This document shows positions 14,378 to 40,700 of a DNA stretch of 64,000 bases, one piece after another; position 1 is the stretch's first letter, and each line of letters begins with the position of its first letter. A program made the translations under genes and the position numbers. The stretch is from Gracilariopsis chorda (Eukaryota > Rhodophyta > Florideophyceae > Gracilariales > Gracilariaceae): assembly GCA_003194525.1 (NCBI GenBank), contig NBIV01000292.1:1-64000 (forward strand), given 5' to 3'. The notes under the pieces were generated by a model. That model saw nothing but the letters and a program-made list of their open reading frames with translations. It ran no database searches and had not been told where the DNA came from.

Positions 14378-14430
14378 GTTAGTTCGCGGTGCACTCAGCA
14401 CATAAGTAGTAGGAGAGGCCGCGAGACCTC

Positions 14431-14440
14431 TATAAAAAGG
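14431..14440 (+). promoter_or_regulatory. TATA-box-like sequence
   Basis: TATAAAAAGG stands out in GC-rich surroundings. Only a short frame (14488-14712) lies downstream, so a real transcript is not established. Confidence 0.25.
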
Positions 14441-15454: not shown

Positions 15455-15462
15455 ATTTGATC

Positions 15463-15648: not shown

Positions 15649-16134
15649 ATTTGATCATGCTGGAGGTGTACGGAATCGCAGACAGAGCAAAGGAAACTTG
15701 CGGACGAGCTGGCCTATCAAGAAAAACCCTTTTCGTACTGCAATGTGTGCCGATGTCCGCGGTGACGCCAACTGTCAAGAATAATTTATCTACCTTGGTC
15801 AAAATTTCAACTTCCCAGTATCATACCGCAGGAGCTTGAGAACTGTAGCACAGCACCATGCCACCCAGCGTAGCGAGTGCATCACGTTTGCTGCATGTCT
15901 GGACACCTGCCCTTTCTCATCATACACGAGTCGATGCCTCACCTCCTCGTCGAAGCTTCTTCTCAAGCTCAGCGCTACCATCAACAGGAATCATACCTTT
16001 CCGGCAGACGAAAGGTTTGCCATCGCAGAGAGACTTGACATAAAATGCTTCTCTGCGACTGACTGTCTGCTTCAACCCGTGAAACTACTGTCCATGATCT
16101 GCTGCCAGTTTCATTGAACAACTACAGTATATGC

Positions 16135-18438: not shown

Positions 18439-18526
18439 TCAGGAGTAAATTTCCCTGGATGGTAGCAAAGGGTCTCATATAACAAGAGGTGCACCATAGG
18501 AGGCGACATGCTCTTACGCGTCATGA

Positions 18527-19861: not shown

Positions 19862-20432
19862 GTTCTATACCTTCAGATAATCACTATAAACGATTAATAA
19901 TGTGTACTTGCAGCAAATACCATAGCCCAAAAGGACATATTCTTAGATCGGTGCAGTGGATGGAGGGATGGTAAGATGGTGAGTAAACACTAACGGTGTG
20001 TATGACGGTAAATGTGAAGAGGGATGTACAAGTATCCTTGTAGCCTTCCTTCCTTCGTATTATTACAGGCGCGGATTGTGAAGAACGAACGAACGAACGA
20101 TCGTGGAGAAAGCATGAAGATCAAAACGTCGAGGGGAGCTGGTCATGAATGAGCTGTTGTACAGTACAGGTACCAAGGGTAGCAGGATACAGTTTGTACT
20201 GTTGGTACACTCCGCGAAAGCTGAATGAAGCCACCGGCCTCTTCCTTCCTGTGACAATACGTGAAAGGAAGGGAGGCAGGGTAGCACACTGTGCTTCTTC
20301 AACTCAGCAACGAGCGCAGTTAGGCAATCTTGTAGAGCGGAAGACCTCGCAGGTCAACATAAAAGGGTAGATAGCTTAAACAAGACCACGAAACCTAATT
20401 AAAATCCAAAACAACAAACACCTTCATTTGAC
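19862..20432. other. Upstream region of the WD40 gene
   Basis: No gene recognised. A short ACGA microsatellite lies at about 20085-20100. Confidence 0.45.
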
Positions 20433-21250
20433 TCAATACTTCGTCATTTCTCCCTTCTTTTCCACCACTTTTATGCAACGCTTTTCTAAAGACTTGTACG
20501 GAGTTTCCAAGTACTCATTGGTCACCTCGTTCCAACAGTCCACAATAACTTCCAAAAGCGTTCCAACATCCGCAAACTGGCGCTGATTAGCGTTTACTCG
20601 ACGTGCCAAACGTCACCAGATGTTTTCCATAATGTTTAAATCGGGACACTTAGCTAGCCAAGGAAGAACATGAACATTGTGGTCCTGAAACCATTTCCTT
20701 GTATAAACAGACCGATGTATAGAATCCTTATCTTTTTGGACAGTGAAAACTTCTTCCAATGTTTTGGCCACAAGCAGTAGCATTTCTTTTTTCTAGTAAT
20801 TTGCAGTACTTCTTAGAATCCATATTATTTTTGCAAACTACTAAATTACTCAAACAAGGAAAGGAATATGCACTCTATAACATGATTGCATCTCCACCAT
20901 TTTGCCTCTTTTAAAAAACAATTCTTTCTGAAAAAGATCATGATAGGTGTATGCGAACCAATTTGGACCATCAATCTTAAACTTTTTCTCATCGGATAAA
21001 ATATTCTTTTCTACTGTTCCATAAAAACGGTCCTTTTATGACGAGGACAAAATTTTCGTACTTTTTTATGGCGTTTTATCATCATTGGTAGCTTTTCCAT
21101 CTTCTTATAAATTAAATTGGGTTCATCCTTCAAAATCTGTTGAAATCTTCTGAGAGATACCGGTAGTGACAGAGCGTTACGAAGCTCTCTTGTAGATGAA
21201 GATGTGTTTGAAGAGGTGCGAATTGAAGCTCTTTTGCCAGTAGGGGTCAT
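20433..21250 (-). pseudogene. Decayed Tc1/mariner (IS630-type) transposase
   Basis: On the minus strand an N-terminal segment (LSLPVSLRRFQQILKDEPN ... KRHKKVRKF) resembles the second helix-turn-helix and linker of Tc1 transposases. Downstream in broken frames comes the signature VHVLPWLAKCPDLNIMENIW, equivalent to the Tc1 W-x-x-x-SPDLNPIENxW block. The last segment (NEYLETPYKSLEKRC) ends at a TGA at 20433-20435. Several stops and frame changes separate the pieces. No terminal repeats were found by eye. Confidence 0.72.
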
Positions 21251-21960
21251 TTTTGGTGTTAGATCCTTTAAACTGAGTATTATTCTAATTGGTATTCTTT
21301 GAACAGTTCTACAAAACAGAACGAGAGCGATTCAAAGTTGGACCTATTTCTCTCTGCAAGCAGCAGTGAGCTGAAGTTGCATAAATCATACCTTTTTCTT
21401 TGGGCTTACAGCGTTCCATCTTGGCTGTTGTTGCACTCGGGGAAACTGAGGGAGATGCAGGTGAAGCGGTTATGGGCTTTGAACTACTGTGTAGTTCGCA
21501 CACTTTTCAACGAATAATACTTAAGGTAAGTGGTCCTTAATTGAATTACGCAGGTATGGTTTGTTATTTCAGTGGCGGGCTGCACTCAAGCCAACTAATA
21601 TAGTCAGCAAGACGCTCTGGACCATTGGTAACTACTACTAAAAAATTAAATAGAATACTACACTATGCTACCGTGCACTGTGCTGCGGTGCCAGGTCCAC
21701 TGGAGGTCACATTTCAGATCACAATTATCTCCAACCCACGTGGCTAATATTGACCCGAGCCGGTAGTGCTCTGGTCCTTCGTCCACCTCTTTGGCAGTCC
21801 AGCTTGCCAGTCATCTGACCTTAGGGCTAATGTACTACAGCAAGAATAACGACACCGATCACCGTTAGTCATGGATCCTTTTCCAACGCTGAGAAAGTAA
21901 AGGCACAAGCGCTTGACCATCGGAGAGAAGATGCAAATCCTCCAGCTACTCAAGCAGGGA
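21251..21960. other. Degenerate repeat-derived DNA
   Basis: No gene. Some stretches recall family A LTR wording, but similarity is too weak to set borders. Confidence 0.35.
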
Positions 21961-22310
21961 TGAAGTGTAATGAGCTCAGGGAGGGATTCTTGGTACTTGG
22001 TTGATTTCCCGAATGTCTCGGTAATGTAGTCATTGCATGAACTACGACCACCAATAGTGGATTAGACACGTGGAAAACAGAAGAGTGAATTGGCGGTGGG
22101 CCACAGTAGTGGGCATCAACCACCAAAGTGGAGTAATTTAGTTAGTTTTATTTATTATTTTACAACCATTTCTGGGATGGTACTAACTAGTACTTAGTGC
22201 GCTGGCGAGTTGCGGTCACACCAGTAAACCTTCCCCAACAAGGAACCCAAAAATGGGGAACTGGCTCTAGACCTCACCCTCTTCGCGTGTTCTCTACTCC
22301 TCTTTGTAGT
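21961..22310 (+). repeat. Old, diverged family B LTR fragment (sense)
   Basis: It begins TGAAGTGTAATGAGC, matching the LTR start TGAAGTGCAACGCCC, and follows the LTR consensus (AGGGAGGGATTC, TTTCTGGGA, CCTTCCCCAACAAGG) until about 22310. Many differences mark it as older than copy 2. Confidence 0.75.
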
Positions 22311-22802: not shown

Positions 22803-23628
22803 TGTGGTGCAACGCCCCAAAGGGGAGAAACACCGAAAGACGTTCGGGATCTTTCCTCCGTGGAGGTGAACCCAGTTGGGTAGAGCCCCTCTAGGAGTGG
22901 CACGGCGGAGCCGGTTTGTAAGACCGAGGCCACCCTTCTTGACTAGCACAAGAGGGTTTAGGACAAGAATCGGTATCCGCGAGAGCGGGAATGCGTCCTC
23001 GCCAGAGGTAGGTTTCCACGTAAGTGGGGGTGTGTGAGCGGATGCGCACACAAGGGCCGCGGATAGCGGGAGATGCTACCCTAAAAAGGGCAAAAAGGAA
23101 GGGCGAAGAGGAGGAAGAGAGGACGAAGTGAGTCGCGAGAGTGACGGGGGCGAGCGGCGATGCCGGTAACAATATCCCTATACAGGGCGAAACACCAATG
23201 TGATTGGAATCATATGACTCCCAGTGATGGGTCCCTTTAGATGTGCAAGGGGGTTAGATGTCCCGTGGTTCACGGCGTTTCCCTCCAAGGAGGAGTAGAG
23301 CACGCGTGCAAGCGGTAACAACTAGAGCCAATTCCCCAGGTTGGGGTCCCTTGTTGGGGAAGGTTTACTGGTGCGACGGCAGTGCGCCGTCGCACAAAGT
23401 ACTAGCTTCCCAGAAATGGGTGTGAAAATAATAAATAAAATTAACTGAAATACTCCACATTTCGTGGCAACGTCCACTACTGTGGCCAACCGCCAATTGA
23501 CCCAAAACCGTGTCCTACGTGTCTATATCCACCATTGTGGGGCGTAGTTCATATACACACTACACAACCGATAATATCGGGAAAGCATTCAAGTACCAAG
23601 AATCCCTCCCTGAGGGTGTTGCACTTCA
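22803..23628 (-). repeat. Solo family B LTR, antisense, with 5-bp target duplication
   Basis: An 826-bp complete LTR. In its own orientation it begins TGAAGTGCAAC and ends TGCACCACA. Perfect 5-bp direct repeats GGAGT flank it at 22798-22802 and 23629-23633. Solo LTRs arise by recombination between the two LTRs of a full element. The insertion is nested inside an older LTR of the same superfamily. Confidence 0.92.
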
Positions 23629-24419: not shown

Positions 24420-24774
24420 CGGTTTTATTATGTAGCTAATTTTATGTAATTTGTTAGGATAGTGTTCGGAGGTCAGAGTGCCTCGCCAGCCATATAGGTT
24501 GGCTTGGGTGCCGGAGATCTCTGAAGTGTAAAGACAAGCACCCTCACCGTCTTCTTGCCGCTATATGCAGCCAGTAGGACTCCAAAGCCCTCCAAGCCAT
24601 CGCTACCATTCTCCCGACCTGTACGGACTTGGGATAGCGCCCGCCCATTGTGCCTAGCTGCCAGTTGGTGCCCGCGATACTAATAGACCCACTGGATTGT
24701 CACCCCATTGGTTGGCTCTCTGCCGCTACTAACGCCTAGTACAGTACTACCCCAGTTGGCAAGAGGATGTAGTA
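24420..24774 (+). repeat. Old LTR remnant related to family A
   Basis: The order CCATCGCTACC, CCCGACCTGTACGGACT, GCGCCCGCCCATTGTGCC and CCCAGTTGGCAAGAGGATG parallels the 3' half of the family A LTR (TATCGCTACC, CCGACCTGTAGGACT, GCGCCACCCCATTGCGCC, CCCACTTGGCTCACTATCC). Copy 2 begins directly after it. Confidence 0.55.
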
Positions 24775-25599
24775 TGAAGTGCAACGCCCTCAGGGAGGGA
24801 TTCCTGGTACTTGATCGTTTTCCCGATATTATCGGTTGTGTAGTGTGTATATGAACTACGCCCCACAATGGTGGGTATGGACACGTGGGACACGGTTTTG
24901 GGTCAATTGGCGGTTGGCCACAGTAGTGGATGTTGCCACGAAATGTGGAGTATTTCAGTTAGTTCTATTTATTATTTTCACACCCATTTCTGGGAAGCTA
25001 GTACTTAGTGCGACGGTGCACTGCCGTCGCACCAGTAAACCTTCCCCAACAAGGGACCCCAACCTGGGGAATTGGCTCTAGTTGTTACCGCTTGCACGCG
25101 TGCTCTACTCCTCCTTGGAGGGAAACGCCGTGAACCACGGGACATCTAACCCCCTTGCACATCTAAAGGGACCCATCACTGGGAGTCATATGATTCCAAT
25201 CACATTGGTGTTTCGCCCTGTATAGGGATATTGTTACCGGCATCGCCGCTCGCCCCCGTCACTCTCGCGACTCACTTCGTCCTCTCCTCCTCCTCTTCGC
25301 CCTTCCTTTTTCCCCTTTTCAGGGTAGCACCTCCCGCTATCCGCGGCCCTCGTGTGCGCATCCGCTCACGCACCCCCACTTACGTGGAAACATACCTCTA
25401 CTGAGGATCACACCCCGCTCACGCGGATACCGATTCTTCGCCTTCACCTCCCTGTGCAAGTAGCGAGAGGTGTCCCTGGTCTTACAAACCGGCTTCGCCG
25501 TGACACCTCTGGGAGGGCTCTACCCAACTGGGTTCACCTCGTGAGAGGAAGATCCCGAACGTCTTCCGGTGTTTTTCCCCTTTGGGGCATTGCACCACA
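24775..25599 (+). repeat. Family B 5' LTR (copy 2)
   Basis: 825 bp, from TGAAGTGCAACG to TGCACCACA. The borders are fixed by two solo LTRs of the family with perfect target duplications. It contains more than 20 short hairpins, for example CCGAT-ATT-ATCGG, GCGACGG-TGCACTG-CCGTCGC, CCAAT-CAC-ATTGG, CCCT-GTAT-AGGG and CCCC-TTT-GGGG. Confidence 0.95.
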
Positions 25600-25602
25600 A
25601 AG

Positions 25603-25623
25603 TGGTCTCCCGACCTAGAATCG
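25603..25623 (+). promoter_or_regulatory. Primer binding site, family B
   Basis: TGGTCTCCCGACCTAGAATC starts 3 nt after the LTR. Its complement ends in CCA preceded by a discriminator A, a 7-nt acceptor strand, a 5-nt T-stem strand and a T-loop-like CGATT, so it fits the 3' end of a tRNA. The family A site is the same except at about three positions. I cannot name the tRNA. Confidence 0.75.
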
Positions 25624-25737
25624 GTTTTTGTTTTCCCTCTTACGAGGTTTGTTTTTATTTACCGTAAGTTCCGTGATCGTTCCCGTCGTAACGGTATTGG
25701 ACAAGTTCCAGCCGTATTGGCGGCGCTTTATCGCGGA

Positions 25738-27771
25738 ATGATACCCCCGACCGGGAACCCCGGAACCTCCTTTTGCCCTCGTTATCACCCCCGCAAGGGA
25801 AATGCAGCATCGACTCCGGCTGTTGCCACAGTGCCCCAGGCACCCCGGCCTGCTCCCGCTGTCGCGGCTTCAAGCCCCCGTGGAACGGGCGATAACACCC
25901 CCCAGGGCACTTCCCTGGAATCCCAGGTCCGCGCTCTGTGGACCGCCCATGACACCCTTGTAAGGGAACTAAAATCCCTCCAAGAGGTGGTCTTGGCAAC
26001 CACCGTAAAGGAGGTCGCAGAGGAACTCCGTATTTTACGGTCTGACGTCAACTCCGTGTTGGAGAGTTTGGGACAACCCGCCACCTTCATCGAAGGAGTT
26101 GAAGCCCGATTTGATTGGATTGGTGCCCGCCTGGAGACGCTGGAGCAGTTCTTCCTCATGGACAAACCAGCCCCGGATGATCCAGTAAACGAGGCATCGC
26201 ACAACGACCAGCTTGCTGGGAAGAAGAAAGGCCGTCATCGACGGAAACACCACCGAAAATATTCGGACTCCGATTCTTCGACATTGTCGGACTCATCCCG
26301 AAACCATTCGGTTAGCTCGAGCTCCTCGGACTCCGACTCGGAGGACGAGAAGCGAGGCTACTCCTCCCGCTCGAAGCGGTCATCGGCCACTGAAGGTGTG
26401 GTCCGAACCCGCCAGAAGAGGAGAAGACACCCCGGTCTCCGGGAATTGAAACCGAGAAACCCGGACTACCGGAAGCTTTTATCATACCGGTACTACCGGC
26501 TTGAAGACTCGTCACTTGGACGTACGCCCTGTGGTACGGGAAAGGTGCGAGAATGCATTAAGCAAATGCAGCTCTCGCTCCGCAACCAGTATTTTACTGG
26601 AGAGGACCCAGTCCTAGTACTGGATTTCCTATCCCGCTTTGTAGCGGAGGCCGATATCCTCGGTATGAATGAGGGACAAGCCTATTTGGCTTTACCGTAT
26701 TTCTTACGGGGAATGGCGGAGGACCAATACAACTCTGTCAGAGGATCTTCTCGTGCCTCCGAGGGAGGGGTTACTTGCTGGCCGGAGGCTGTGCAGTATC
26801 TTTTGCGCTCCTACGCCACAAACACCGCTATTCAGCAGGCTATCCTCGCTTTGCGAGATACGCGCCAGCGTGCTGGAGAGACCGAGACCGATTACTCGGT
26901 GCGCCTTAACAAGGCTCTCCACAGATGTGGTAACGTATACCCCGCTCGGGAGCGCAGTACCATGTTCATCGATGGTCTTGACCCAGCAATCCGGCGTTTA
27001 GCTACCCGTTATCGGGAGGACAAGCGGAGGATTACCTATCTCGAGCTGGTCCAACACGCCCGAGCGGAAGGGGATGCACTTCGTGCAAGAACTCCGAACA
27101 ATCGGTCTAAATCCGCCAAGGCGTTGTTGCTGGAAAGCGAAGCTTCCTCACTCCCGCTCACTGCGGATGGGAACCCTGGACAGGGATTTGATACCGTGCA
27201 TTTAGTGCAAGGGGATGGTGTGTCGATTCCCACCAGTGATTTACCGTCAACGACGGAGATGACCCGTGATACGGGAACGGAAGACCCCGTTTTGTACGGT
27301 GGTAACAGTCGGGTCCAACCCCAACGACTCCCGTTTTCAAACGGTCAATCCCGTTATCAACGGCCTGGATGGACTGACACCCGCCCTGCGGTTCGTTTCT
27401 CCGATACTCGGAATAATAATCCGCGTGTCGCGGTATTGGCTCTCATTTGCCACCTGTGCTATGCCCATGGCCATACCTCCCCTGAGTGTATTTGTTCACT
27501 GAAGGATATGGCCAAGGTGGTGGCAAATTATGAGGCCCTCACTCCAGAGGAGAAACGTTCCGTCCCGACGGCTTCCTACATCCGTGCTAAAACGGACTTT
27601 TCCCATGCCCTATCACAGACCCCGCGTGCGCGGCAAGCTTCATACACCCCGATTCGGGAGATCACGCAAACATCCGTTGCAACCCCCGCTTATGCGGATA
27701 GAAACCCCCGTCAACGGGATGAAGCACTCGTTGTCGAGGAAACCAACCCACCGCCGAAGGCGGAAAACTAA
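25738..27771 (+). CDS. Family B Gag
   Basis: The frame is open from inside the LTR. The first ATG after the PBS in this frame is 25738, giving 677 aa. A Ser/Asp/Arg-rich segment (HRRKHHRKYSDSDSS) at about residues 165-230 is followed by a capsid-like helical domain at about 240-440 (YFTGEDPVLVLDFLSRF, WPEAVQYLLRSYAT, ETDYSVRLNKALHRCGN). A CCHC zinc knuckle, CHLCYAHGHTSPEC, lies at about 571-584. The frame is intact. It packages element RNA. Pol lies in the -1 frame, and GGAAAAC abuts the stop. Confidence 0.88.
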   Translation: MIPPTGNPGTSFCPRYHPRKGNAASTPAVATVPQAPRPAPAVAASSPRGTGDNTPQGTSLESQVRALWTAHDTLVRELKSLQEVVLATTVKEVAEELRILRSDVNSVLESLGQPATFIEGVEARFDWIGARLETLEQFFLMDKPAPDDPVNEASHNDQLAGKKKGRHRRKHHRKYSDSDSSTLSDSSRNHSVSSSSSDSDSEDEKRGYSSRSKRSSATEGVVRTRQKRRRHPGLRELKPRNPDYRKLLSYRYYRLEDSSLGRTPCGTGKVRECIKQMQLSLRNQYFTGEDPVLVLDFLSRFVAEADILGMNEGQAYLALPYFLRGMAEDQYNSVRGSSRASEGGVTCWPEAVQYLLRSYATNTAIQQAILALRDTRQRAGETETDYSVRLNKALHRCGNVYPARERSTMFIDGLDPAIRRLATRYREDKRRITYLELVQHARAEGDALRARTPNNRSKSAKALLLESEASSLPLTADGNPGQGFDTVHLVQGDGVSIPTSDLPSTTEMTRDTGTEDPVLYGGNSRVQPQRLPFSNGQSRYQRPGWTDTRPAVRFSDTRNNNPRVAVLALICHLCYAHGHTSPECICSLKDMAKVVANYEALTPEEKRSVPTASYIRAKTDFSHALSQTPRARQASYTPIREITQTSVATPAYADRNPRQRDEALVVEETNPPPKAEN

Positions 27772-27796
27772 CTGAGGGAGTCTCCCCTTTGGGAGA
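27762..27796 (+). promoter_or_regulatory. Candidate -1 frameshift site at the gag end
   Basis: GGAAAAC (27762-27768) is directly followed by the gag stop TAA. A perfect hairpin TCTCCC-CTTT-GGGAGA lies at 27781-27796. Pol continues in the -1 frame (GGA AAA CTA). Family A has the same heptamer one codon before its gag stop (37775-37781). It is not a canonical X-XXY-YYZ heptamer, since only the A-site codon re-pairs well. Confidence 0.45.
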
Positions 27797-30700
27797 GGCG
27801 TCCTCAAGAACGAGGCTGTTGGCGCCCGAGGCGTCCTCGCCTCGCTCCCCGGTGAAAGTCCTCTCGAGGAAAGACACCGCTGACGCGGACTCTGCGCACC
27901 TCGGTGTGTTGCGTCGCCCGTGGATACGGAGTAAAAATCCCCGGATTCCCGGTAGAGTCTTGGTCTTGGCCAAGCGCAATTATAAGGTCTATGCCGACCT
28001 TGGCCTTGACCCCCAGTTTATGGTGAGGTTTCTCACCGTCCTGGATACAGGTGCAGGCCCCAACTTTGTTGTGGAATCATTGTTACCCCCGCTTGTGCGG
28101 TCGCGTATCCGCTCTGACGCGGTCCCCGACATTTCGGATGCGAACAACAATCCGTTACAAACGGTGGGCACAGTGGACCTCGTCGTGAGACTTGGTATCT
28201 CTGTGGTGAAGTTGGACTTCATCGTTTGCCGTTCATTGGCAGCACCAGTCATACTGGGATGTGATTACTGCGACAGATTTGTCGACGCAATCAGGACCCG
28301 CCTCAGGCGTGTAAAACTTGAAAACGGATCGTCGGTTCCGATTGTTCGCCGCCCGCTAAAGCGGTCCTCTCGGAAACAAGTTCCGCTCCCTGCCGCGCAG
28401 GAACCACCGCCCGCCTCCCGCGAGTCCACCAAGCTCCGCGTCGCTGCCTCAGTTTCTATACCCGCTGAGTCCCAAGTCTGGGTGCAGGTAAATTCCCGTC
28501 AACACGGTCTTCGGGTTATACAACCCCTCGCCTCGTTGTATGAGAAATCCCAGCTGGCGCTGGCTAATGGAATTGTCTCCATTTCCCCGGATGTTCCTTT
28601 CCGGATATTGGTTGCCAACCTTGGCAAACACCCCCAGTATCTGGTAAAACACCAAGTAACTGGGAGTGTAACCTCCCATCCTATGGGAATGCTGCCAACG
28701 AAGATGACAGCCGCCGATGTACTCGGAGTTACCACCTCTTCTGAGGAGTTCGCCCCGCCGTCCGAAGACGTCAAGTCTAAGGAGGGGGAGGAAACCGCTA
28801 CTTCAGCGTCGAACATACCGAGTAACTAGAAATTGCGAACCACACCTGTTCCACAGGACAATGCTCCATCGAGCAACGACTGGATTGATCCGGAAAAAGC
28901 ACTTGAAGCGCTGGACTTTAGCCACGTGCCAGAGTCGCACCGCGACAAACTCCGTACCATGTTACGGGAACTCACCACAATGTGGGATGGCTCGCTTGGC
29001 GAGATTAACGCAACGGAACACCGGATCGATTTAATCCCCGGTGCGCGACCGGTTGCACAACCCCCTTACAGGGCAGGTCCGAAAGCTCGGGGAGAGGAGC
29101 AGTCCCCAGTGGACAAGATGCTCGGGGCAGGTGTGATTGAGCCCGCTCAATCACCCTGGGCATCCCCAGTTGTACTGGCTTTGAAGGCCGACGGAACCTG
29201 GAGGTTCTGTGTCGACTACCGCCGGCTCAATGCCATGACTGTTAGGAACACGTACCCTATCCGTCGTATGGAAGAGTGTGTTGACACCCTCGCAGACGCC
29301 ACCGTTTTCACGGCCCTCGATGCCAATTGGGGATATTGGCAAGTACCTGTCAGACAGGAGGATCGTGACGAAACCGCATTGACCTGCCACGCAGGAACGT
29401 ACGGCTTCAAGCGGATGCCATTTGGGTTAACCATGGCCCCCGCTACCTTTCAGCGTGCAGTAGATATTCTACTCAACCGCTTTAAGTGGCGTAGGTGTCT
29501 GGTCTACCTTGGTGATATTATCATCTTCTCCAACTCGTTGGACGACCATCTCACTCACGTCCGAGACCTGCTGACCGTACTCCGCGATGCGGGAATTACC
29601 CTCAAGTTGAGGAAATGCGAGTTTTTCACAGATACTGTGAAGTATCTGGGTCACATTATCCGTCCTGGACGGTTAGCGATCGAGAAAGCTCGAGTCAAAT
29701 CCCTCGTTGAGGCGAAAGAACCCCGTACTCAAACGGAACTGCGCTCCTTTCTGGGGCTGGTCAACGTCTATTGACGGTTTATCCCGAACTTTTCGGATAC
29801 TGCAGCGCCCCTGAACGCGTTGTTGCGAAAGGGGAACACCCCAAAACTGGGAACATTTACGCCCGAGCAATCGGAAGCCTTTAACTCCTTGAAGGAGGCT
29901 GTCACATCAGCACCAATCCTACATCTTCCAAAACTTGGGTTGCCATACTCCGTAGGTACGGACTCGAGCGACAACCAAGTCGGGTGTGCTCTTTTTCAAA
30001 CCACCCCCGAGGGGGAACGACACCCAATCGGTTATTGGTCGCGCTTGCTCAATGTTCATGAGCGGAACTACTCCGTATCGGAGAAAGAGTGCCTCGCCGT
30101 CGTATGGGCGATGACCACTCTGCGCCACTACGTTATGGGAGTTCACTTCACCGTGTACACGGATCATTCCTCATTGAGGTGGTTGATGAATATCTCCGAC
30201 CCGTCGGGACGCCTCATGCGCTGGAGACTCCGCCTCGCGGAATATGACTTTCAAGTCATTTATAAAAAGGGTGCGCAGAACACCCAGGCCGACGCTTTAT
30301 CGCGGTTACCCACAAGTGGGGAAGCACTCCCAACGGAGGATGATGAAGTCCCATGCTTCATGGCTATAGACCCGGGTGATCCGGAACATGCCGTCGAGGC
30401 TAGGCCAGAAACCTGGGACGAGGATGCTGATTTTGACGAACTACTCGCATCGCGAGATAAATCTGAGAACCCGTTACCGGGAAACTTTGTACCGGTATCA
30501 CCGGAAGAAATGATCCGAGAACAATTCGGCGACCCATTCTGTACGAGAATTCGTGCCCGTATCAACGGTGGTGAAGATCTACCTTTCGGGGTAAACGACA
30601 AAGGCTACCTCGTAAGAAAGGTCGAAGCCCGCCCACTGATTGTGGTACCACATTCCCTGCAATCGCGGGTGTTACATCTATCACACTACGCCCCCATTGG

Positions 30701-33200
30701 AGGTCACCCAGGTGGGAGGAAACTCTACCTAACCCTGCGAAGGGATTTCTATTGGCCCGCAATGGCGGTGGATTGCTACGCAACTGTGCGGTTTTGTAGC
30801 GAATGCGCGAAGAATCGCGTCAAACTCCGCAAAAATGCGAAGAAGATGAAACTATTCCCCGCAAGGGCGCCGCTCGAGTTTATCGCCATCGATATTCTCG
30901 GACCACTACTCATCACGAAACGGGGAAACAAGTTTCTACTTGTCATTACCGACCGCTTTTCTAAGCTGGTAGGGACTGTCCCTCTTCGGAGGGTAACCGC
31001 TCTCACGGTGGCCCAGGCTCTGGTGACGCACTGGATTTTCGTCTACGGTCCCCCTGTGGAGGTGCTCTCTGATAACGGGAAACAGTTCGTGAGCAAGTTC
31101 TTCCAGGATTTTTGTCGCATCCTGGATGTCAAGAACTTGTTCACGACTACCTACCACCCCCAGTGTAATGGGCAAGTTGAACGGTTTAACCGGACGTTAC
31201 TCGCGGCGTTACGTTCCTACGTCGCAGACCCCCCAAAGAACTGGGACATGTACGCTGATGCGGTAACCTACACGTACAATACGCAGGTACAACGGACTAC
31301 CGGAGTTTCGCCATTTGAGTTGGTTCTATCTAGAACACCCCCGCCTGTGGCGCTGGAACCCCAAGCTACCTTGGACAATTTCCCATCAGTGGGTATCTAC
31401 CGGCAGCAATGGAAGCAATGGATTTCCAAGCTGGTCCCCGCTGCACGGAAGTCGGTGGCACGGGCCCAAGCCACTTACAAGCGGGATTTTGATTCTCGCT
31501 TGCGAGGTAAACCGTCCCCGATTCGGGCGAATAACTACGTCTTCATCAGGAAGGAGTACTACAACCCGGAACGGGAGAAGCGCCATAAACTCTCGCCTGT
31601 GGCGGATGGACCATTCAAGGTCATCTATGTGAACACCGACACTGTGGTGGTAGAGATGGGCGACACGCACGAACGGATTTCCCGTGATCGTGTTGTCCTT
31701 GCCCCTCCTCCCTCGTCAGAGGTAGTCCTGGATCCAGGCAACCCCGTTTCTACGGACTCTGCAACACCGGAATCATCCGGGAGTACTAGGCCTACGGTAC
31801 TACCACACCCCAGCCGGGGACTATCAGACCTACCGACCCTGTCGGACTCACCGGCTCAGCCGGGTAATTCGGGCCTCTCAGCGCCCGCCCCTACCACGCC
31901 CACCCCCCTGGCGCGAATTTATACCCGCCAGGCGGGGAATGTTATCCCTTATCCCGCCGCTCCGTCTAAGTAGGGGGAGGAGAACACTCGTTTTCGAGGA
32001 ACCCTATCGCCGTTGCAACGCACCGTAACATACGGAACACTGAACGTGGAGCACGGAGTATGTCAAGCGACACTAGTTCCCCGTTCTCGGGCAGTGCTGC
32101 GCAACAAGAGCCAGACGCGCAGGCCCCGCAAAAGCGGCAATTATACCGTGCTACATACACGGGAGGTTGAAGCGCAACTACCGCACACCCCTGTCAGGGA
32201 AAAAGGCAGCCAAGCCGCAGCCGAAGCTTCAGGCCCTGGCGCGCAAGCGCCGGAAACGCCTCCCGTCGTCGACGGAATGGAAGCCCCCGCTCCGGGGAAT
32301 AATTTGCGCCAACCCCCGCAACGCTGTGGCGAAGAACCGAGGAACTCTGGAAAAACGCGCGCCATCGCACGCTCGAAACCGGTCGTACCGGACGCTGCTC
32401 CTCTTCATGGAGATGGTGCACCGCGCTTAGCGGCAATTCCCCTGAAAAGGGTGTCATCGGCACCTGCCCGGCACCCCCCAAAGGGGAATTTTGACCAAAA
32501 TACCGGTGTACCGGAGTTAGCCCCAGGCAACCCGTCAGTAACCGGGGACACCACGGCGTCGCCGGAATATATGGTGCAGAGCGCTCGTGCACCTGGCAGG
32601 GAGGCGGAACGCTTACCAATCACCGTGTCACACGGGACCCCGCAGGGGATGTCGCAAACGCCGTTCCCGCATACGCGGCAAAGACCCCGCAAGCTCGCGG
32701 TTCGCAAAGAAGACCGCACTCACGGAGTTCAAGTCCCCCGCCGGTTGGCGGTTCGCCCGGCCTACCGGGATGACGGGAACAACGACGCCATTCTGGGGAA
32801 TGACTTGCCGGTGAAAACCGTGACGCCACAAACCCTCTTGAGGGATATTTTCCCGCATGAGCAGCGGCCACTAAGACAGTGCACAGCAACGCCGGAGACA
32901 TCGCCGACAACCCGGATGGGAGGCAACATACCGCACAGCCGGCAACCCTCGCAAGGGAGTACAACCACCACCTCGCACGGCCGGCAGATCTACGAACGAG
33001 AGTTCGTAGTAGACTGACTTGTCGGACACACCTGGGACCAGGATGGTATTCTACAATACCGCCTCCGCTGGTACGGATATGACCCCAGTGGGGATACGTG
33101 GGAGCCAATTGAACACCTCCCACGATGGCAGGTCGTGCGATACCACCGTCAAACGGGAACTGCAGCCCCAGCGACGCTGGTTAATGCCCAAGTCGGGTAG
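27765..33200 (+). pseudogene. Family B Pol: protease, RT, RNase H, integrase, chromodomain
   Basis: One continuous frame with four in-frame stops (TAG 28827, TGA 29772, TAG 31971, TGA 33015) and no frameshift. The protease has LDTGAGPNF (Asp at 28044). RT: FCVDYRRLNAM, ALDANWGYWQVP, FGLTMAPATFQRA; the catalytic motif reads YLGD (GGT at 29511) instead of YLDD, so polymerase activity should be lost. RNase H: VGTDSSDNQ, SEKECLAVVW, YTDHSSLRW. Integrase zinc finger and D-D-E (IAIDILGP, SDNGKQF, GQVERFNR) are intact. A 1-kb Pro/Arg/Thr-rich linker at 32013-33015 leads to a chromodomain (YRLRWYGYDPSGDTWEP) after the last TGA. The TGA at 29772 sits where family A has Arg. Confidence 0.9.
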
Positions 33201-33387
33201 CGTCACCGCGCGAGCGGAGGGCAGTAAGAAACGATAGCAAGGGAAAGTCCGTCAAAGACGGGGAATTCTAATTGGAAATCACCGTCCGAGACGGGAAAGT
33301 CTACCTAGCAGAGCAGCAAGCTCCATACTACACTACATTAACTGGCATAGCCAGGGAAGCAACACCAGGAACCTGGACAAAAGGGGC

Positions 33388-33918
33388 TCACTCTTCGCCG
33401 TTGCCCGGGGCTTGACCACCCGCAAGGCGGAAAGCCAACGCGTCCGCCATGGCGGTGACATCCCCCGGAAGGGTGTCTGAGCCATCCGCATAAGCGGTGA
33501 CCAATCCCTCATTGAGGACAGCGACCGGGTGAAACCACGGGGCAAGGCGCAGGCGCGACGCGTGATTCCGATTCATCGGGTTGAGCCCCACCAGGGTGTT
33601 GTAGGTTGGCCAGTTGAACGCCGCAGCGGTTCCGGAGGACCCCACCGAAGGTGGTAGTGCGAAGGGATGGTCGGCTGCAGCAGCCATATTCCCCGGTTGT
33701 ACCGGATGTCGATCGCCCTGAGGCAGGGGAACTGACCGAAAACCGGTGGTGTATCGCCCAAGAGGCCTCGGAGGTTGGCTGTGGTTGTTGATGTTGTTGT
33801 CGTCGTTCATTTCTTCCTTGTCGAGGGTGGCTGTTGTTGTCGTTTGTGCGCTTGGTGAGTCTGGTGCAGAGGGATTTACCGAAGAACCAGAGACAGAGCA
33901 CGCGCTTTTATCACCCAT
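33388..33918 (-). CDS. Antisense ORF in the 3' region of family B
   Basis: An ATG-started 176-aa frame on the minus strand, beginning 54 bp inside the 3' LTR border and reading towards pol. The N-terminus is Ser/Thr/Asn-rich (TTTTATLDKEEMNDDNNINN). The C-terminal 90 residues (FNWPTYNTLVGLNPMNRNH ... LPGDVTAMADALAFRLAGG) look like folded protein. No family recognised. Position and strand parallel the larger antisense ORF of family A; I see no clear sequence similarity between the two. Transcription could start from an antisense promoter in the 3' LTR. Confidence 0.5.
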   Translation of the reverse strand: MGDKSACSVSGSSVNPSAPDSPSAQTTTTATLDKEEMNDDNNINNHSQPPRPLGRYTTGFRSVPLPQGDRHPVQPGNMAAAADHPFALPPSVGSSGTAAAFNWPTYNTLVGLNPMNRNHASRLRLAPWFHPVAVLNEGLVTAYADGSDTLPGDVTAMADALAFRLAGGQAPGNGEE

Positions 33919-33962
33919 TTTCGCCTGGGAATCCTCCGCTTCCGCGTTCGTTTTCCCGTCTT

Positions 33963-33972
33963 AGGGGGGATA
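33963..33972 (+). promoter_or_regulatory. Polypurine tract, family B
   Basis: AGGGGGGATA lies directly before the 3' LTR, the expected position for the plus-strand primer. Confidence 0.75.
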
Positions 33973-34797
33973 TCAAGTGCAACGCCCTCAGGGAGGGATT
34001 CCTGGTACTTGATCGTTTTCCCGATATTATCGGTTGTGTAGTGTGTATATGAACTACGCCCCACAATGGTGGGTATGGACACGTGGGACACGGTTTTGGG
34101 CCAATTGGCGGTTGGCCACAGTAGTGGATGTTGCCACGAAATGTGGAGTATTTCAGTTAGTTCTATTTATTATTTTCACACCCATTTCTGGGAAGCTAGT
34201 ACTTAGTGCGACGGTGCACTGCCGTCGCACCAGTAAACCTTCCCCAACAAGGGACCCCAACCTGGGGAATTGGCTCTAGTTGTCGCGGCTTGCGCGCGTA
34301 CTCTACTCCTCCTTGGAGGGAAACGCCGTAAACCACGGGACATCTAACCCCCTTGCAAATCTAAAGGGACCCATCACTGGGAGTATAATTGTTCCAATTG
34401 CATTGGTGTTTCGCCCTGTATAGGGATATTGTTACCGGCATCGCCGTTCGTCCCCGTCGCTCTGGCGACTCACTTCGTCCTCTCCTCCTCCTCTTCGCCC
34501 TTCCTTTTTCCCCTTTTTAGGGTAGCAACTCCCGCTATCCGCGGCCCTCGTGTGCGCATCCGCTCACGCACCCCCACTTACGTGGAAACATACCTCTACT
34601 GAGGATCACACCCCGCTCACGCGGATACCGATTCTTCGCCTTCACCTCCCTGCGCAAGTAGCGACAGGTGTCCCTGGTCTTACAAACCGGCTTCGCCGTG
34701 ACACCTCTGGGAGGGCTCTACCCACCTGGGTTCACCTCGTGAGAGGAAGATCCCGAACGTCTTTCGGTGTTTTTCCCCTTTTGGGCATTGCACCACA
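33973..34797 (+). repeat. Family B 3' LTR (copy 2)
   Basis: 825 bp, starting TCAAGTGC (TG changed to TC) and ending CACCACA. About 27 differences from the 5' LTR by my count. Several fall in hairpin loops while stems stay paired (CCAAT-TGC-ATTGG against CCAAT-CAC-ATTGG), and one restores a stem (GTCGC-TCTG-GCGAC). Confidence 0.93.
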
Positions 34798-35033
34798 GAT
34801 ACCACCAGCCAAGATACCCTTCCGCTGAAAGCGATCCAACTCGTTCGAGCTCTCAGGCTTGAACAAGAACTTTTGAACTTCCCCTTTTAAGCCCTACTCG
34901 CCAAGATGCCCGTCACAAAAAACGTACTGCAGACAAGAGCGTGCATGAGTCGCGATTCTGTGCTAAAATTTGCTACACCTTACAAGGAAAAAGAATTATT
35001 TATGAGGTTTACCACTTTTCGTGGATAGATTAA
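34798..35033 (+). pseudogene. Tigger-like transposase remnant, N-terminal part
   Basis: Reading in one frame towards the copy 3 insertion gives DSVLKFATPYKEKELFMRF and, across the insertion site, IKKFVKRHALRSV. This matches the CENP-B/Tc5-type DNA-binding domain of Tigger transposases; the usual Trp before the second helix is a TAG here. The remainder is at 46170-46450, beyond the nested element. The left edge abuts the copy 2 LTR. Confidence 0.65.
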
Positions 35034-35510
35034 TGTGAGAGAGCGAAGTCCAGTGGATTCTACAATTCTGGAGACCCGTGTGGACGATACACGTTGTGTA
35101 TCGGGCCTAAGGAGGGCTAACTGTATTTTATATAATTCATTTAATTTTATTATTTTCTTAACCATAGAACTAGAGATAACTACTGTAGAGTAGGGCACTT
35201 TACAGTGCCACAGGGTCGAGGTGCCTCGTGCCACTACTTATGCACCTCGAGCTGCGCCTCCCCTTTGGACGGTAAACTCAGACACCCTCGTGAGTCCTGA
35301 GTACCCCCGTACTTGGTATTCGCGCTCCCAACTGGCCTTCAAGGTATCGCTACCGCACCTCCGACCTGCAGGACTGCGTAGTTAGCGCCATCCCATTGCG
35401 CCAACATTACCAGAAGTGTCGCCGCCGTTCCATTGACCTTAGGACCTCCCAGCTCTGCCACGCTACCACGAGACCATTACGAGTTTGCCCACTTGGCTCG
35501 CTATCCCACA
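35034..35510 (+). repeat. Family A 5' LTR (copy 3)
   Basis: 477 bp, TGTGAGAG...CCCACA. Strong hairpins include CGATACAC-GTT-GTGTATCG (35085-35103) and GGCACT-TTAC-AGTGCC (35194-35209). Confidence 0.95.
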
Positions 35511-35512
35511 TT

Positions 35513-35533
35513 TGGTCTCCTGACTTAGAATCC
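35513..35533 (+). promoter_or_regulatory. Primer binding site, family A
   Basis: TGGTCTCCTGACTTAGAATC, 2 nt after the LTR and nearly identical to the family B site, so both families probably prime from the same or closely related tRNAs. Confidence 0.72.
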
Positions 35534-35615
35534 CCTTGAACGTTTGAGTACAGACCTTAATGATAAGACGAAATTACGGGATTCTACCTTTGGAACTTAG
35601 ACCGACGGACTGGTA

Positions 35616-37787
35616 ATGACAAGCAACTGCCCCATGGATACCGAAAATAACCCCCAACATGATGATCAGAGGACCCCTCAGGCTGGCCCCAGTGGACTGT
35701 CGACGGTTCCTGAAACCATTGGCCTCGCGGCCGATGCGACCAGCGACCGCCAGAGTACGCGCAGTCAACCTTTAGTACGTCCATTGACCCCCGTGGATAA
35801 TCCGGAAAGGATTGCGAGAGAGTCCAATTTGGCCGCTCGTCTCCGATCCCGCCTCAACAGGATCAATTCCCAGCCGGCCACGCCGACGAAAAACCTACAG
35901 GAAGCTTCTCCAGATGTGAGGGAAGACCTCTCCAGGGGTCTCGCTGATGTCCTATGGCCGCAGCTGAAACGTCTCTGTGAGGAGCACGTTCAGTCCCTTT
36001 TGGATACCCGTGTTCCAGAGGTCTTAGATGGGATGATTGACCAAAGGACTACTCGCCTCGTTCCTCAGGTCCTGGAGTCCACGACCTTCGTGGAAGCCAT
36101 GGCCTCGACCATACGGACGGAGGTCACACGCCAGGTAGGCACCCCGGCCCTTGCGGCCAATATTCAAAGTATTCCGTCGGCCTCCGTGTGGCAACCACAC
36201 TCCGAACCCCCGGGAGTAGCTGCTCTACCAGCCCTTCGCCGGGTTAACCAACAGGAAGACCAAATGGAAGTGCACCCAGGGATTGGAAGAGACCCTCCCC
36301 GGCAAGAAGGCCTAATGGCTGCACGACCCATGAGGTACCAGGGCTCCCAGCAGGCCCGCAGATCCATTGGATTTGGCGATGTCGAGATCGCTCCATTGGA
36401 CGAGCGAAGTGCTGACCGAAGGAAGAACAGAAGACCTAGAAGGAACAAGAAGTCGAGGAAGAGGAGAGACCATTCGCAAGATAGCAATAACGGGTCCAGT
36501 TCAGACTCGTCAGTTTCGACCGATACGGACGCGGATGAGGCAGCTGTTCGACGCCTCAGGCCGCTGGCAACTACCAACGAACTTTTTAAGAAAGTGTTGG
36601 ACTATCGAAATTACCGACTGGACAACAGGTCCTCAAGGTATTCCGGTTCGGTGGCTGGACGAGTCACCAAGTGGGCCAAACGGATGCAGCTTACCGTTAC
36701 GGACAAGTTCTCAGGAACTGACCCGATCGCTGTCCTTAGGTTTCTGTCTCAATTCCGTACGGCCTGCGACCAGAACGGCGTCCACGAGGGAGCCGCTCTG
36801 TACCTGTTTCAGTTTTTCCTCAGTGGACAAGCGCACGACCATGTGGTTTCGAAGATCTCCGGTTCCAGTGACCCAATGGATGCAACGGTTATGGAGCTCC
36901 TTAGGTCCTACCCAGAGGTCGTTCATTACCTTTTGGAGACGTACGCCACTGACGACGTAATTATGGATGCCCATCAGGACGTGATTTCCTTTAGGCAAAG
37001 CACTAACGTGACCGAAACGGACTTTGCTGACCAACTGTGGAAGAAGGCATACCGCTGTGGGAATGTATTTTCCGAAGGACGACTCAAGCAGCACTTCATG
37101 GCTGGATTACTGCCGGCCATTAGGACTCACGTGCGTAATCACCACTCCGACAACCAGAGGCTTTCGTTCCGCCAGTTGGTTACGTTTGCCGAAAGATACG
37201 GCAAGACCTATAGGACATCCCGTCGAACGGCGGACATGGAGGCCAGAGGTCGAGCATCACCTTTGAGGAAGAGTTCCAAAGTCCATATGGTCGACTCTTC
37301 TGAAAGCGAGTCCACTGGTAACATCCGTTCGGAAGAAGGAGATATCCTTGCGGTCTCTTGTTCTTCCGCTCCTTCTGGTGCGCCATCCATATCGGCCACT
37401 GGAACTACTACTCCATCTGGACAAACGACGCCACGGTATACGTTCGTCCAACCTAGGAAGGACGTTTTCACCCGCTGGCCACCTTGCTACCTCTCCCTCT
37501 CCACGGCTGGGCCGTGTCATTGCATGAAGTTCATGCCAGAGGATGTTCGCAAGAACTTCCTAGCACTAAGGGATGAGAACTTCCAAGCCAGGAGGGCAGA
37601 GGGAAATTACCATCGTCAGTACCAACGGAATCAGTCCTCAGGGTCTAGTCGATACGCCACGCCGCGCGAGGCTCCGGCCTCTCAGGTCAACGCTATCGAT
37701 ATTTCCGATACGGATACTGTCCCTCAGGTGACCCCCGTGGAAGCTCCAGTGGACCGTCACGGAAAGACCGAACAGGAAAACGCGTAG
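35616..37787 (+). CDS. Family A Gag
   Basis: An ATG-started intact frame of 723 aa. The N-terminal third is Pro/Arg-rich. A basic segment at about residues 268-290 (DRRKNRRPRRNKKSRKRR) and a Ser/Asp stretch precede the capsid-like domain at about 320-540 (FSGTDPIAVLRFLSQF, YPEVVHYLLETYAT, ETDFADQLWKKAYRCGN), clearly homologous to family B Gag. Where family B has a CCHC knuckle this protein has only CYLSLSTAGPCHC, so the zinc knuckle is absent or degenerate. The pol frame opens in -1. Confidence 0.85.
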   Translation: MTSNCPMDTENNPQHDDQRTPQAGPSGLSTVPETIGLAADATSDRQSTRSQPLVRPLTPVDNPERIARESNLAARLRSRLNRINSQPATPTKNLQEASPDVREDLSRGLADVLWPQLKRLCEEHVQSLLDTRVPEVLDGMIDQRTTRLVPQVLESTTFVEAMASTIRTEVTRQVGTPALAANIQSIPSASVWQPHSEPPGVAALPALRRVNQQEDQMEVHPGIGRDPPRQEGLMAARPMRYQGSQQARRSIGFGDVEIAPLDERSADRRKNRRPRRNKKSRKRRDHSQDSNNGSSSDSSVSTDTDADEAAVRRLRPLATTNELFKKVLDYRNYRLDNRSSRYSGSVAGRVTKWAKRMQLTVTDKFSGTDPIAVLRFLSQFRTACDQNGVHEGAALYLFQFFLSGQAHDHVVSKISGSSDPMDATVMELLRSYPEVVHYLLETYATDDVIMDAHQDVISFRQSTNVTETDFADQLWKKAYRCGNVFSEGRLKQHFMAGLLPAIRTHVRNHHSDNQRLSFRQLVTFAERYGKTYRTSRRTADMEARGRASPLRKSSKVHMVDSSESESTGNIRSEEGDILAVSCSSAPSGAPSISATGTTTPSGQTTPRYTFVQPRKDVFTRWPPCYLSLSTAGPCHCMKFMPEDVRKNFLALRDENFQARRAEGNYHRQYQRNQSSGSSRYATPREAPASQVNAIDISDTDTVPQVTPVEAPVDRHGKTEQENA
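37775..37787 (+). promoter_or_regulatory. Candidate -1 frameshift heptamer, family A
   Basis: GGAAAAC (37775-37781) lies one codon before the gag TAG (37785-37787); the -1 frame is open through gag's end into pol. Family B has the same heptamer at the same place. Confidence 0.4.
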
Positions 37788-40700
37788 AGGAGCGGCCGGA
37801 GGCGAACCGCCCTTCTGAGGATCCCAGCCTCAACCCCGATGGACAGGAGTCACCTGGCTCCAGAAGTCCTTCGGAGTCTCACCAACCAACGGACAAGTGG
37901 ACCGACGACCCAATGGAACCGTCACTGGATGACCAGGACCCTATCTGTGTCCTTAGGAAGGAGAACTACAAAGTTCGCATGACCATAGGACTCCGCACCT
38001 CACACTCTAGAGTGGCTACAAGTGTGCTGGACACGGGCGCCGGGCCCAATTTGATACATTCTAAGGTCCTACCAATTGGTTGGGAAGACAAGGTCCGGGT
38101 GAAGAAGACCCCCAGGATTACTGATGCTTCGCGCAGACCAATGGCCATTAAAGGAATCATTTCGTTATTTGTCCAACTGGGCAGTTTGCGAGTCCGTACG
38201 TGGTTCCTCGTATGTCCGAACTTGGGAGCGGAATGTATCCTTGGGACTTCCTTCATCGACTGCTATGTGAAGGCCATTTACCCTGGCCTTCGGAAAGTCG
38301 CGTTCTATCGCGCACATCCTGTGGCCTTGATAGGTTCCAAACCGGGACCTGAGGCAAACCCGCGGAAACCTCCACTGGCGACGAACACTATGTCCAATAA
38401 GGTCAGGCTCACAAAAGCCTTGGTCATCCCTGCGATGACTCAGACCACCGCTTGGGTTCAGTGCGAGTCTTCTGGTCTTTTGACGCTGCAGAATCATCCG
38501 AAGACGATCCGCCGTCAACTCACCCTCATGGCCAATGGAGTTATGGACGTTCGTCCGCGGCAGCCCTTTGTGGTCAGTATGAGTAACTTCACTGACCATC
38601 CGGTTAGATTACCTACAGGAACAGTAGTCGGCATTGCCCTGCTAGCTCCTGTGGCCATTAGGGAAACCAATTTGGACAGCTCCCACCTGGACGACGACGA
38701 GGACGCCGAGTCCTGGGAGGGGGACGTCAAAATGGGGGAAGAATTCGAATCCTATAGGCCTCAGGTTATAGAGCTCCTTCGGGAATTCAAATCCATGTGG
38801 TCTGGCCAGCTAGGCGAGATTCGGGCGACAAAGCACCGAATCGACCTTAAGGACGACGCGAAACCAGTGTACCAACACCCCTATAGGACGGGCCTAAAAG
38901 GAAGAACCATCGTGGCCGAACATATAGAAAAGATGGGGATGGCCAACGTCATCGATCCGGCTCCTCCTCATCAGTCCGAATGGGCCAGCCCCTTTGTCCT
39001 GGTGGCCAAGAAGGATGGCTAGGTCAGGTTTTGCGTTGACTACAGGAAACTCAACGCTATGACCAAAAGGGATTCGTACCCTATCACCCGGATGGACGAC
39101 TGTCTCGATTCCTTAGGAGAGGCAGCTGTCTTTACCACCTTGGACGCCAATTGGGGATATTGGCAAATACCACTGGACGATGATGTGAAGCCGCTGACCA
39201 CGTTCACGACCCACGAGGGACTTTTCCGATTCACTCGTATGCCCTTTGGATTAATAAACGCACCCGCTACGTTCCAGAGAGCAATGGACATTATCCTATC
39301 TAGGGTCAAATGGAAGTTCGCACTGGTCTATTTAGACGATGTTATCATCTTCTCAAAGACCATTGGTGAACACTTCTCCCACGTTAGGACAGTTCTGAGG
39401 ATTCTCCGCGAGGCCGGAATAACGTTGAAGCTCCCCAAGTGCTTCTTCTTCCAGTCCTCTGTGGATTACCTTGGCCATGTGGTCCGCCCTGGATGCCTAC
39501 AGGTTGCCTCGAGGACGACTGACGCCATACAGCAAGCTAAGCCCCCCAGGACCCATACGGAGTTGCGTTCCTTTTTAGGTCTATGTAACGTCTATCGTCG
39601 CTTTGTCCAAGGGTTTGCGAAAATCGCTGCGCCGCTTAACGACATGTTGCGCAAAGAGACCCCATCGGAGTTCGACTGCATGACGGACGAGCAATATGAA
39701 GCTTTTGAGACCCTGCGGGATAAGCTTCTGAACCCTCCTATATTGGCCTTGCCTAAACCGGACAAACCGTACATCCTTGACACGGATGCGTCCGATGGCC
39801 AAATTGGATGTGTTCTCCTCCAGGAACAAAAATCTCCGAGGGACTATAGACCAATTGGCTATTGGAGCCACTCGCTAACGAGCCCAGAGTGGAACTATAG
39901 CACTTCCGAGAAGGAATGCTTATCCATTGTCTGGTCAGTATTAACCTTAAGGCCATACTTGGAAGGCGTTCGGTTTACCATAAGGACTGATCACCATTCG
40001 CTTAGGTGGCTCATGAACATGACCGACGCGTCCAGAAGGCTCGCCCGATGGAGATTGCGCCTGTCGGAGTTTGATTTTGATGTTACCTACAGGCCGGGGA
40101 TAAAGCACCAAGCAGCTGATGCCCTTTCCAGGATCCTGAGCGATGGCACTGATCAATCTCCTCTGGACGACAAGCTACCTACACCGGACCTGATAGGTTA
40201 TGAATCTGACCATGAGGATGACTTCCTTCTAGGACGCGTTAATTGCGATGACCCCGATGTGGACGTGGAAGCAATATACCTGGTGAACTGGTCTATGGAC
40301 GAGAAAAGCAAAGTACAGCCCCTTGAGGTTAACGCAGTTCAACCAGAGGAAAAGGAGCTCCTGCCAATCACGCTGGATGAGCTCCTACAGGCCCAAAAGG
40401 ACGACGAGTACTGCAAGAAGCAGGCTGGCCTCGTCGGGACCCCTGGTTGTCTGTTTGACTATCACCGATTCGGACTGCTCTGCAGCAGAGCCCCTCTGGA
40501 CGGAGCAATCCAACGGGTCATCCCTAAAGTCCTCAGGGCACGAGTTCTGTACCTCGCCCACTACCCCCGGTTGGCCGGCCACCCTGGCGGAACGAGAATG
40601 TATCAGTCCCTACGGAAACATTTCTACTGGCCCTTTATGGCCAATGACCTTTGGCAAACCTCTAGGACGTGCGCCTCGTGCGTTAAAGCACGCGGCTCGA

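Follow-up and report, generated by a model that had tools for sequence, protein, structure and literature searches.

The window analysed here is the whole of a 64,000-nucleotide stretch of DNA from the red alga Gracilariopsis chorda (contig NBIV01000292.1), and within it lies an LTR retrotransposon, element B, whose parts are collected in Table 1. The Pfam domains of the element follow the order reverse transcriptase (RT), RNase H and integrase, which is the Ty3-type order, and its two LTRs are about 96.7% identical. A pattern search placed the CCHC motif of Gag at residues 575–588 of the translation of 25726–27768; the Gag protein gave no Pfam match to zf-CCHC, and the 347 residues of pol past the third premature stop (31974–33017) are without any Pfam match. 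In other copies of the element, the pol frame is open for up to about 1885 amino acids. A TGG lies 3 nt behind the 5′ LTR, with no tRNA matched to it. Rfam returned no match within the element at E values up to 0.1, and a search of viral contigs found no relative. The genome searched comprised 91.3 Mb in 1081 contigs. The window also encodes the host protein NAA35 (16063–18435), which is 62% identical to its counterpart in Gracilaria domingensis and 61% identical to that in Agarophyton chilense.

Table 1. Features of element B in the window
Feature	Position	Strand	Remarks
Element B, Ty3-type LTR retrotransposon	24775–34797	+	196 CC…GG mini-hairpins
5′ LTR	24775–25599	+	825 bp, TG…CA; 20 CC…GG hairpins
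gag frame	25504–27771	+	stop to stop
Thirteen CC…GG hairpins within gag	26208–26709	+	example at 26232–26244
CCHC zinc knuckle of Gag (C-x2-C-x4-H-x4-C)	27448–27489	+	pattern match
pol frame	27723–33017	+	premature stops at 28827, 29772 and 31971 in window copy
Reverse transcriptase	28830–29774	+	PF00078
RNase H and integrase (RH–IN)	29775–31973	+	PF17917, PF17919, PF17921, PF00665
3′ LTR	33973–34797	+	825 bp, starts TC not TG; 20 CC…GG hairpins

The copy in the window has no target-site duplication, the flanks reading TAGTA before the element and GATAC after it (24765–24774 and 34798–34807). Because of this, and because the 3′ LTR starts with TC, the copy may be recombinant or an eroded insertion. 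At 52 sites it departs from a letter common to all other B copies; the letter of the others is present in the related families C–E, described below, at 31 of these sites, and the letter of the window copy alone at none. These deviant letters, together with the three premature stops in pol, indicate that the window copy is itself drifting. Outside the element, 23273–23628 is an inverted fragment of the B LTR and 49486–50287 an apparent solo B LTR; on the minus strand, the translation of an open frame at 50216–52138 matches DDE_1, a domain of transposase type (PF03184, E 4.3e-12).

Element B is filled with short palindromes of the form CC…GG. Counting non-overlapping palindromes with arms of at least 4 and loops of 3–6 letters against 500 dinucleotide shuffles, we reproduced the counts of the initial annotation, with 13 in 26161–26760, 20 in each 825-bp LTR and a high density across gag and pol. 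The shuffles gave a mean of 1.04 for 26161–26760 (maximum 5 of 500), so that the random expectation of 0.6 stated earlier was slightly low; they gave 1.66 and 1.70 for the LTRs (maxima 7 and 6) and 19.7 for the entire element (maximum 34), where 196 are observed. Host gene 16135–18438, which had been named as a comparison, contains none (1.27 in shuffles), so the host gene does not equal the density of the element. When the motif is written as CCNN-N(3–5)-NNGG, element B has 187 per 10 kb versus 14.2 in shuffles, and the mirror type GG…CC has 18 versus 13.4; the CC…GG counts are 13 versus 10.9 per 10 kb in a further element family of the window, family A, and 5 versus 4.2 in host DNA at 12001–22000.

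The excess persists when the encoded proteins are held constant. With 100 synonymous-codon shuffles, gag has 39 observed versus 4.2 (maximum 10) and RH–IN 35 versus 6.1 (maximum 14), and none of the 100 shuffles matches the observed count in any of five stretches of B (gag, 27723–28829, RT, RH–IN and 31974–33017). The same procedure gave 0 observed versus 0.8 for NAA35, one of two host genes tested, both of which lie inside the shuffle range, as do two family A stretches (1 and 2 observed versus 2.3 and 2.1). Synonymous shuffling of B yields a mean roughly double that of whole-codon shuffling (4.2 versus 2.3 in gag); part of the hairpin potential therefore sits in the protein sequence itself. 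Chance, base composition and codon use are thus ruled out as the cause by the dinucleotide, codon and synonymous shuffles, the very controls proposed in the initial annotation, whose ranges the counts for gag and for the element far exceed. A scan of the window in 2-kb bins for CC-type stems with arms of at least 5 and loops of 3–8 found five or more in six bins overlapping B and in two others (from 22001 and 48001, six each) that hold pieces of B LTR; the remaining 24 bins have 0–2 each. The bin 26001–28000 contains 40 stems versus 10.1 expected, with 20 versus 1.4 of CC type and 0 versus 1.3 of GG type. Maximal CC motifs number 109 in 25726–33017 and 55 in the LTR plus UTR, and the spacing in B, the densest family, is one hairpin per roughly fifty letters in coding and non-coding parts alike.

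The hairpins conform to a narrow geometry of 4–5 base pairs and a loop of 3–4 nt, 11–13 nt wide in all, on a CC/GG base. The strongest departures from expectation in B are for arms of 5 with loops of 3 (53 versus 5.3) and arms of 4 with loops of 4 (76 versus 22.5), followed by arms of 4 with loops of 3 (45 versus 24.5) or 5 (45 versus 23.0); loops of 6–9 are weakly raised at most, and stems with loops of 9–30 are not in excess. Pairs 3 and 4 are enriched at widths of 11–13, and pair 5 is enriched at width 13 and not at 11 or 12, from which it follows that pairing goes inward until 3–4 nt remain. Fifteen of the 16 possible inner dinucleotides occur at pairs 3–4, each 3.7- to 30-fold over shuffles, those of A/T only being among the lowest. 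This bears out the initial description of palindromes that each have their own sequence and share a shape. The motifs occur in all three codon phases.

Element B, the subject of the initial annotation, is not the sole carrier of such hairpins; three further families of the same genome share the feature. Among the 150 RT matches listed, we selected another sixteen pieces of 1.3 kb, and 13 of them have an excess, with 7–15 CC motifs versus 0.5–1.4 expected; the other three (L079, L080 and L081), from distant families, have none. The 13 positive pieces make up families C, D and E, with C at 74–75% DNA identity to B. RT identity to B is 76–77% for C, 71–72% for D, 72–73% for E, 59% over 190 residues for A and 33–35% for L079–L081. 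The RT tree groups A with B–E (100/100), the inner order being partly unsettled with long branches flagged. Per kilobase of pol there are 17.4 CC motifs in B, 12.8 in D, 7.7 in C and 7.3 in E. When any outer pair is allowed (stems of at least 4 pairs, loops of 3–5), stems number 341 versus 116 over the 10 kb of B, 113 versus 41 in C, 98 versus 40 in D, 99 versus 38 in E and 166 versus 124 in A. In family A (35001–46200), 3-bp stems with loops of 1–5 are weakly over-represented (z 1.3–3.0 in gag, pol and the rest), and no clear positional code was found in them.

The fate of the hairpins in individual copies was followed in the window copy and 29 of its closest matches (40 of 1232 candidates were scored, yielding 30 loci). 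Changes private to one copy arise at 0.175 per stem site versus 0.158 per site outside. In pol, 434 private changes in the 29 copies other than L020 remove 68 motifs, where random placement would remove 69.1, and create 3, where 3.5 are expected; inclusion of L020, an outlier, gives 86 lost (103.3) and 3 created (6.2). In the LTRs (n = 30), 252 private changes remove 58 motifs (55.2) and create 2 (2.2). Individual B copies are thus in neutral drift, and new motifs hardly ever arise by mutation. Because copies lose motifs at the random rate and gain almost none, the array must, we infer, be kept by selection in the transposing lineage. Two features of the copies themselves were noted. Of the 719 private changes in the 30 copies, 312 fall in L020, which is an old or recombinant copy. 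With L020 left out, L025, L030, L033, L036 and L037 are separated from the other 24 copies by 129 fixed differences in the pol region, all in the distal kilobase (alignment columns 3581–4587), as if two subfamilies had formed a mosaic. Hairpins are present in both versions of this kilobase and differ partly in sequence.

Comparison of the codon-aligned families reveals compensation. In all 12 directions of comparison, which are not independent of one another, the number of stem pairs changed at both positions that are Watson–Crick pairs is above the shuffle mean, and in 10 it is significantly so (reached by at most 50 of 1000 shuffles). Examples are B to D (15 versus 6.7, reached by 2 of 1000 shuffles) and D to E (15 versus 7.6, 5 of 1000). 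The two directions without significance are B to C (86 of 1000) and E to C (203 of 1000). Hairpins re-made between families include CCGCTTCAAGCGG and CCGATTCAATCGG, and CCCTGCGAAGGG and CCTTAAAGAAGG. Stem-site changes are confined to one arm in 27 of 238 comparisons versus 57.6 expected, a count that compensation itself lowers and that comes from comparisons that are not independent. The families, compared at 64–66% identity, also keep motifs at the same places: 19 of 59 motif centres are common to B and D (shift-control mean 1.6, maximum 6), 12 of 59 to B and E (0.9, maximum 6) and 8 of 44 to D and E (0.6, maximum 5). None is common to B and A, which has four motifs. Third positions of codons whose residue is unchanged differ less inside stems in five of six comparisons using B and D motifs (0.366 in stems and 0.611 outside for D against B), the sixth, B against C, being reversed (0.556 and 0.503). 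Residue change is lower in stem codons in two of the six comparisons, in one of these by 0.001 and in the other clearly. Synonymous constraint in stems is modest.

Overall, the hairpins look selected rather than produced by copying error. The initial annotation had offered both readings. Its proposal that reverse transcription turns quasi-palindromes into perfect ones is contradicted by two results: private changes create motifs no more often than random placement, in pol and LTRs alike, and changed stem sites are confined to one arm less often than expected. Its proposal of many selected hairpins is the better supported of the two, by neutral decay, compensation, shared positions and the shift of base register described below; action as RNA and binding by Gag, which formed part of it, would be possible further readings.

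The C–G pairs of the stems stand in a register that differs between families. In stems of 4 bp with a 4-nt loop, with pairs numbered from the loop and both LTRs counted for B, C–G occupies pair 3 in 85 of 109 hairpins of B and pair 4 in 89 of 109. Family D resembles B (20 and 16 of 30), and in family C pair 4 is C–G in 18 of 35 and T–A in 11 of 35. In family E the preference lies at pairs 2 (21 of 32) and 3 (16 of 32), with pair 4 unbiased (6 of 32), a difference with few hairpins behind it. Fisher tests of B, with both LTRs included, against E give a p value of 0.002 for pair 2 and one of 1e-10 for pair 4. Hairpins of E with 3-nt loops and 4-bp stems show a weaker pattern, C–G being at pair 3 in 15 of 27 and at pair 4 in 10 of 27. 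Five RNA phages show no C–G preference by position.

Because the preferred register moves between related families, the data suggest that a reader of the hairpins is encoded by the element itself. Gag is the most likely candidate: in B it has the CCHC pattern and also a basic, serine-rich stretch, and it has relatives in Agarophyton chilense (best match 50% over 89% of the query), all of which suit it to this part. A search of the family A gag frame 35601–37787 for the exact CCHC pattern did not find it. The interpretation that we favour, tentatively and at not quite even chances, is that families B–E are Ty3-type elements shaped by selection for many mini-hairpins, each a candidate weak site for an element protein, most likely Gag. 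Selection would load the element with hairpins of near-fixed size whose C–G pairs keep a constant spacing from the loop; each would be a weak putative site for the element-encoded protein, most likely Gag; and many sites jointly might label the genomic RNA and make it compact enough to be packaged, by analogy with the dispersed packaging signals of RNA viruses.

Whether the hairpins act as RNA bears directly on this proposal. CC…GG is its own reverse complement, so that the strand can be read only from wobble pairs, loops or flanks, and G–U pairs are expected in RNA stems. Per excess perfect 4-bp stem with loops of 3–4, the number of G–T mismatches is −0.01 ± 0.07 in L030, a B copy with intact frames, 0.06 ± 0.06 in the window copy, 0.02 ± 0.08 in C–E and 0.52 ± 0.13 in five RNA phages. 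With 5-bp stems, the corresponding values are 0.05, 0.16, 0.40 and 0.73 for loops of 3–4, and 0.07, 0.17, 1.02 ± 0.19 and 0.87 ± 0.13 for loops of 3–6. Families C–E are thus no lower than the phages in the last case, the near-lack of G–U is firm for B only, and the argument that the hairpins lack G–U and so are not RNA is not upheld. In two phages alone, G–T and A–C excesses are alike; with five, the G–T excess is clear for 4-bp stems. The near-pure Watson–Crick pairing of B could reflect a protein that reads a regular helix, action in cDNA or a need on both strands. RNA folding scores are modest: B has z values of about −1.0 to −1.4, and C, D and E have −0.45 to −0.52, hardly below family A (−0.38). 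For L030 the sense and antisense strands score −1.37 and −1.36, differences elsewhere are small and of either sign, and loop and flank letters are nearly strand-symmetric with no firm strand signal.

Some further mismatch counts were evaluated. An apparent minus-strand wobble, with 38 C–A versus 14 T–G mismatches, was dropped, many cases being register shifts of C-runs; L030 has 3 C–A and 4 T–G mismatches. A G-to-A mutation bias was also considered as the cause of the C–A excess; private changes comprise 113 C>T and 105 G>A. Polarised changes between families have no consistent bias. One-sided A–C changes between families outnumber those of G–T, 122 versus 83, in 12 ordered, non-independent comparisons.

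An arrangement of this kind might serve as general RNA structure, akin to the genome-scale ordered structure of viral RNAs, with no specific reader; it would keep the RNA compact or stable, or shield it against RNases or silencing. The pervasion of coding and non-coding parts, the compensatory changes between families and the short-loop hairpin excess of RNA phages would all fit; the narrow size with no excess of longer-looped stems, the favouring of CC…GG over the equally stable GG…CC, the family-specific register, the near-lack of G–U in B and the modest folding scores speak against it, and we consider it unlikely. Nor do we think it likely that single-stranded cDNA is the acting form, or that the hairpins must form on both strands, for instance in reverse transcription, cDNA protection or integration. 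The absence of G–T mismatches from 4-bp stems of L030 and C–E, set against their frequency in phages, points that way, as do the like folding of sense and antisense and the near-symmetry of loops and flanks; the phage-like value of C–E with 5-bp stems and loops of 3–6 points the other way. Moreover, we know of no cDNA function that requires such sites, which we count against this explanation.

The strand-symmetric shape and a CC to GG spacing of about one helical turn recall dyad-symmetric sites in double-stranded DNA for a dimeric DNA-binding protein. Such sites would hardly tolerate 15 of 16 inner dinucleotides provided that they pair, and pairing inward to a 3–4-nt loop is as in a folded strand; this explanation is already unlikely, and we attach very little weight to it. 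Equally little weight falls on fold-back template switching in the retrotransposition cycle, which would make and mend palindromes without selection. The hairpins do follow one RT group, and passages of PMC8794818 describe template switching that makes and mends hairpins elsewhere. The private changes of B nevertheless create motifs no more often than expected (3 versus 3.5 in pol, 2 versus 2.2 in LTRs) and destroy 68 and 58, and changes confined to one arm are too few (27 of 238 versus 57.6, with the reservations on compensation and non-independence given above). This explanation is largely refuted.

Returning to hairpins read by an element protein, we entertain as possible, with more doubt, a wider form of the proposal. 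An entire LTR-retrotransposon genome might be written in a hairpin code with its own register in each family (C–G at pairs 3–4 in B and D and at 2–3 in E, pyrimidine–purine pairs in C), kept in the transposing lineage by a co-evolving element protein, in which at least 100 sites of a single shape in each genome would mark self RNA or cDNA and tell co-resident families apart. To our knowledge, how LTR retrotransposons select their own RNA from the cell is poorly understood. In families B–E, one candidate site recurs in numerous natural versions within each element, and the four families differ in preference within one host. If the proposal is true, the idea of dispersed packaging signals would extend from RNA viruses to retroelements, and most of a coding genome would be seen to be under selection for nucleic-acid shape, the drifting copies serving as a built-in neutral control. 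The near-lack of G–U in B makes the choice between RNA and cDNA directly testable.

We found no description of a hairpin array in an LTR retrotransposon in the titles and abstracts of the literature searched, a body that leaves out most subscription journals. RNA viruses with genome-scale ordered RNA structure have such structure superimposed on coding sequence along the genome. The structure of B–E likewise overlies coding sequence; it differs in that only mini-hairpins of 11–13 nt are enriched, longer-range stems are not, and folding scores are modest. A closer parallel is offered by bacteriophage MS2 and other RNA viruses with dispersed packaging signals, for which genome-wide hairpins, in coding sequence too, are reported with a proposed common motif read by coat protein (PMC4751978, PMC6281560). 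Like these, the hairpins of B–E are many, genome-wide, share a motif and are, as far as can be judged from neutral loss in the copies and from compensation, kept by selection. RNA phages too have an excess of short-loop hairpins, perfect 4-bp short-loop stems reaching 1.8 times expectation in five phages versus 3.4–3.6 times in B. The differences are that B–E are LTR retrotransposons, that their C–G register is fixed, that G–U is almost lacking in B and that contact with a coat protein is putative. In Ty1 and retroviruses, according to passages of PMC8396678, the element's own RNA is recognised by Gag through structured motifs, with the signal near the 5′ end, whereas the sites of B–E lie in all parts of the element. 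Template switching as outlined in passages of PMC8794818 would yield perfect inverted repeats and apparent compensation, but the mutational gains and one-arm changes that it predicts are not found in B. Dispersed packaging signals are already known in RNA viruses; what is new here is their possible counterpart in this kind of element, together with a fixed geometry, a family-specific register and, in B, the near-lack of G–U.
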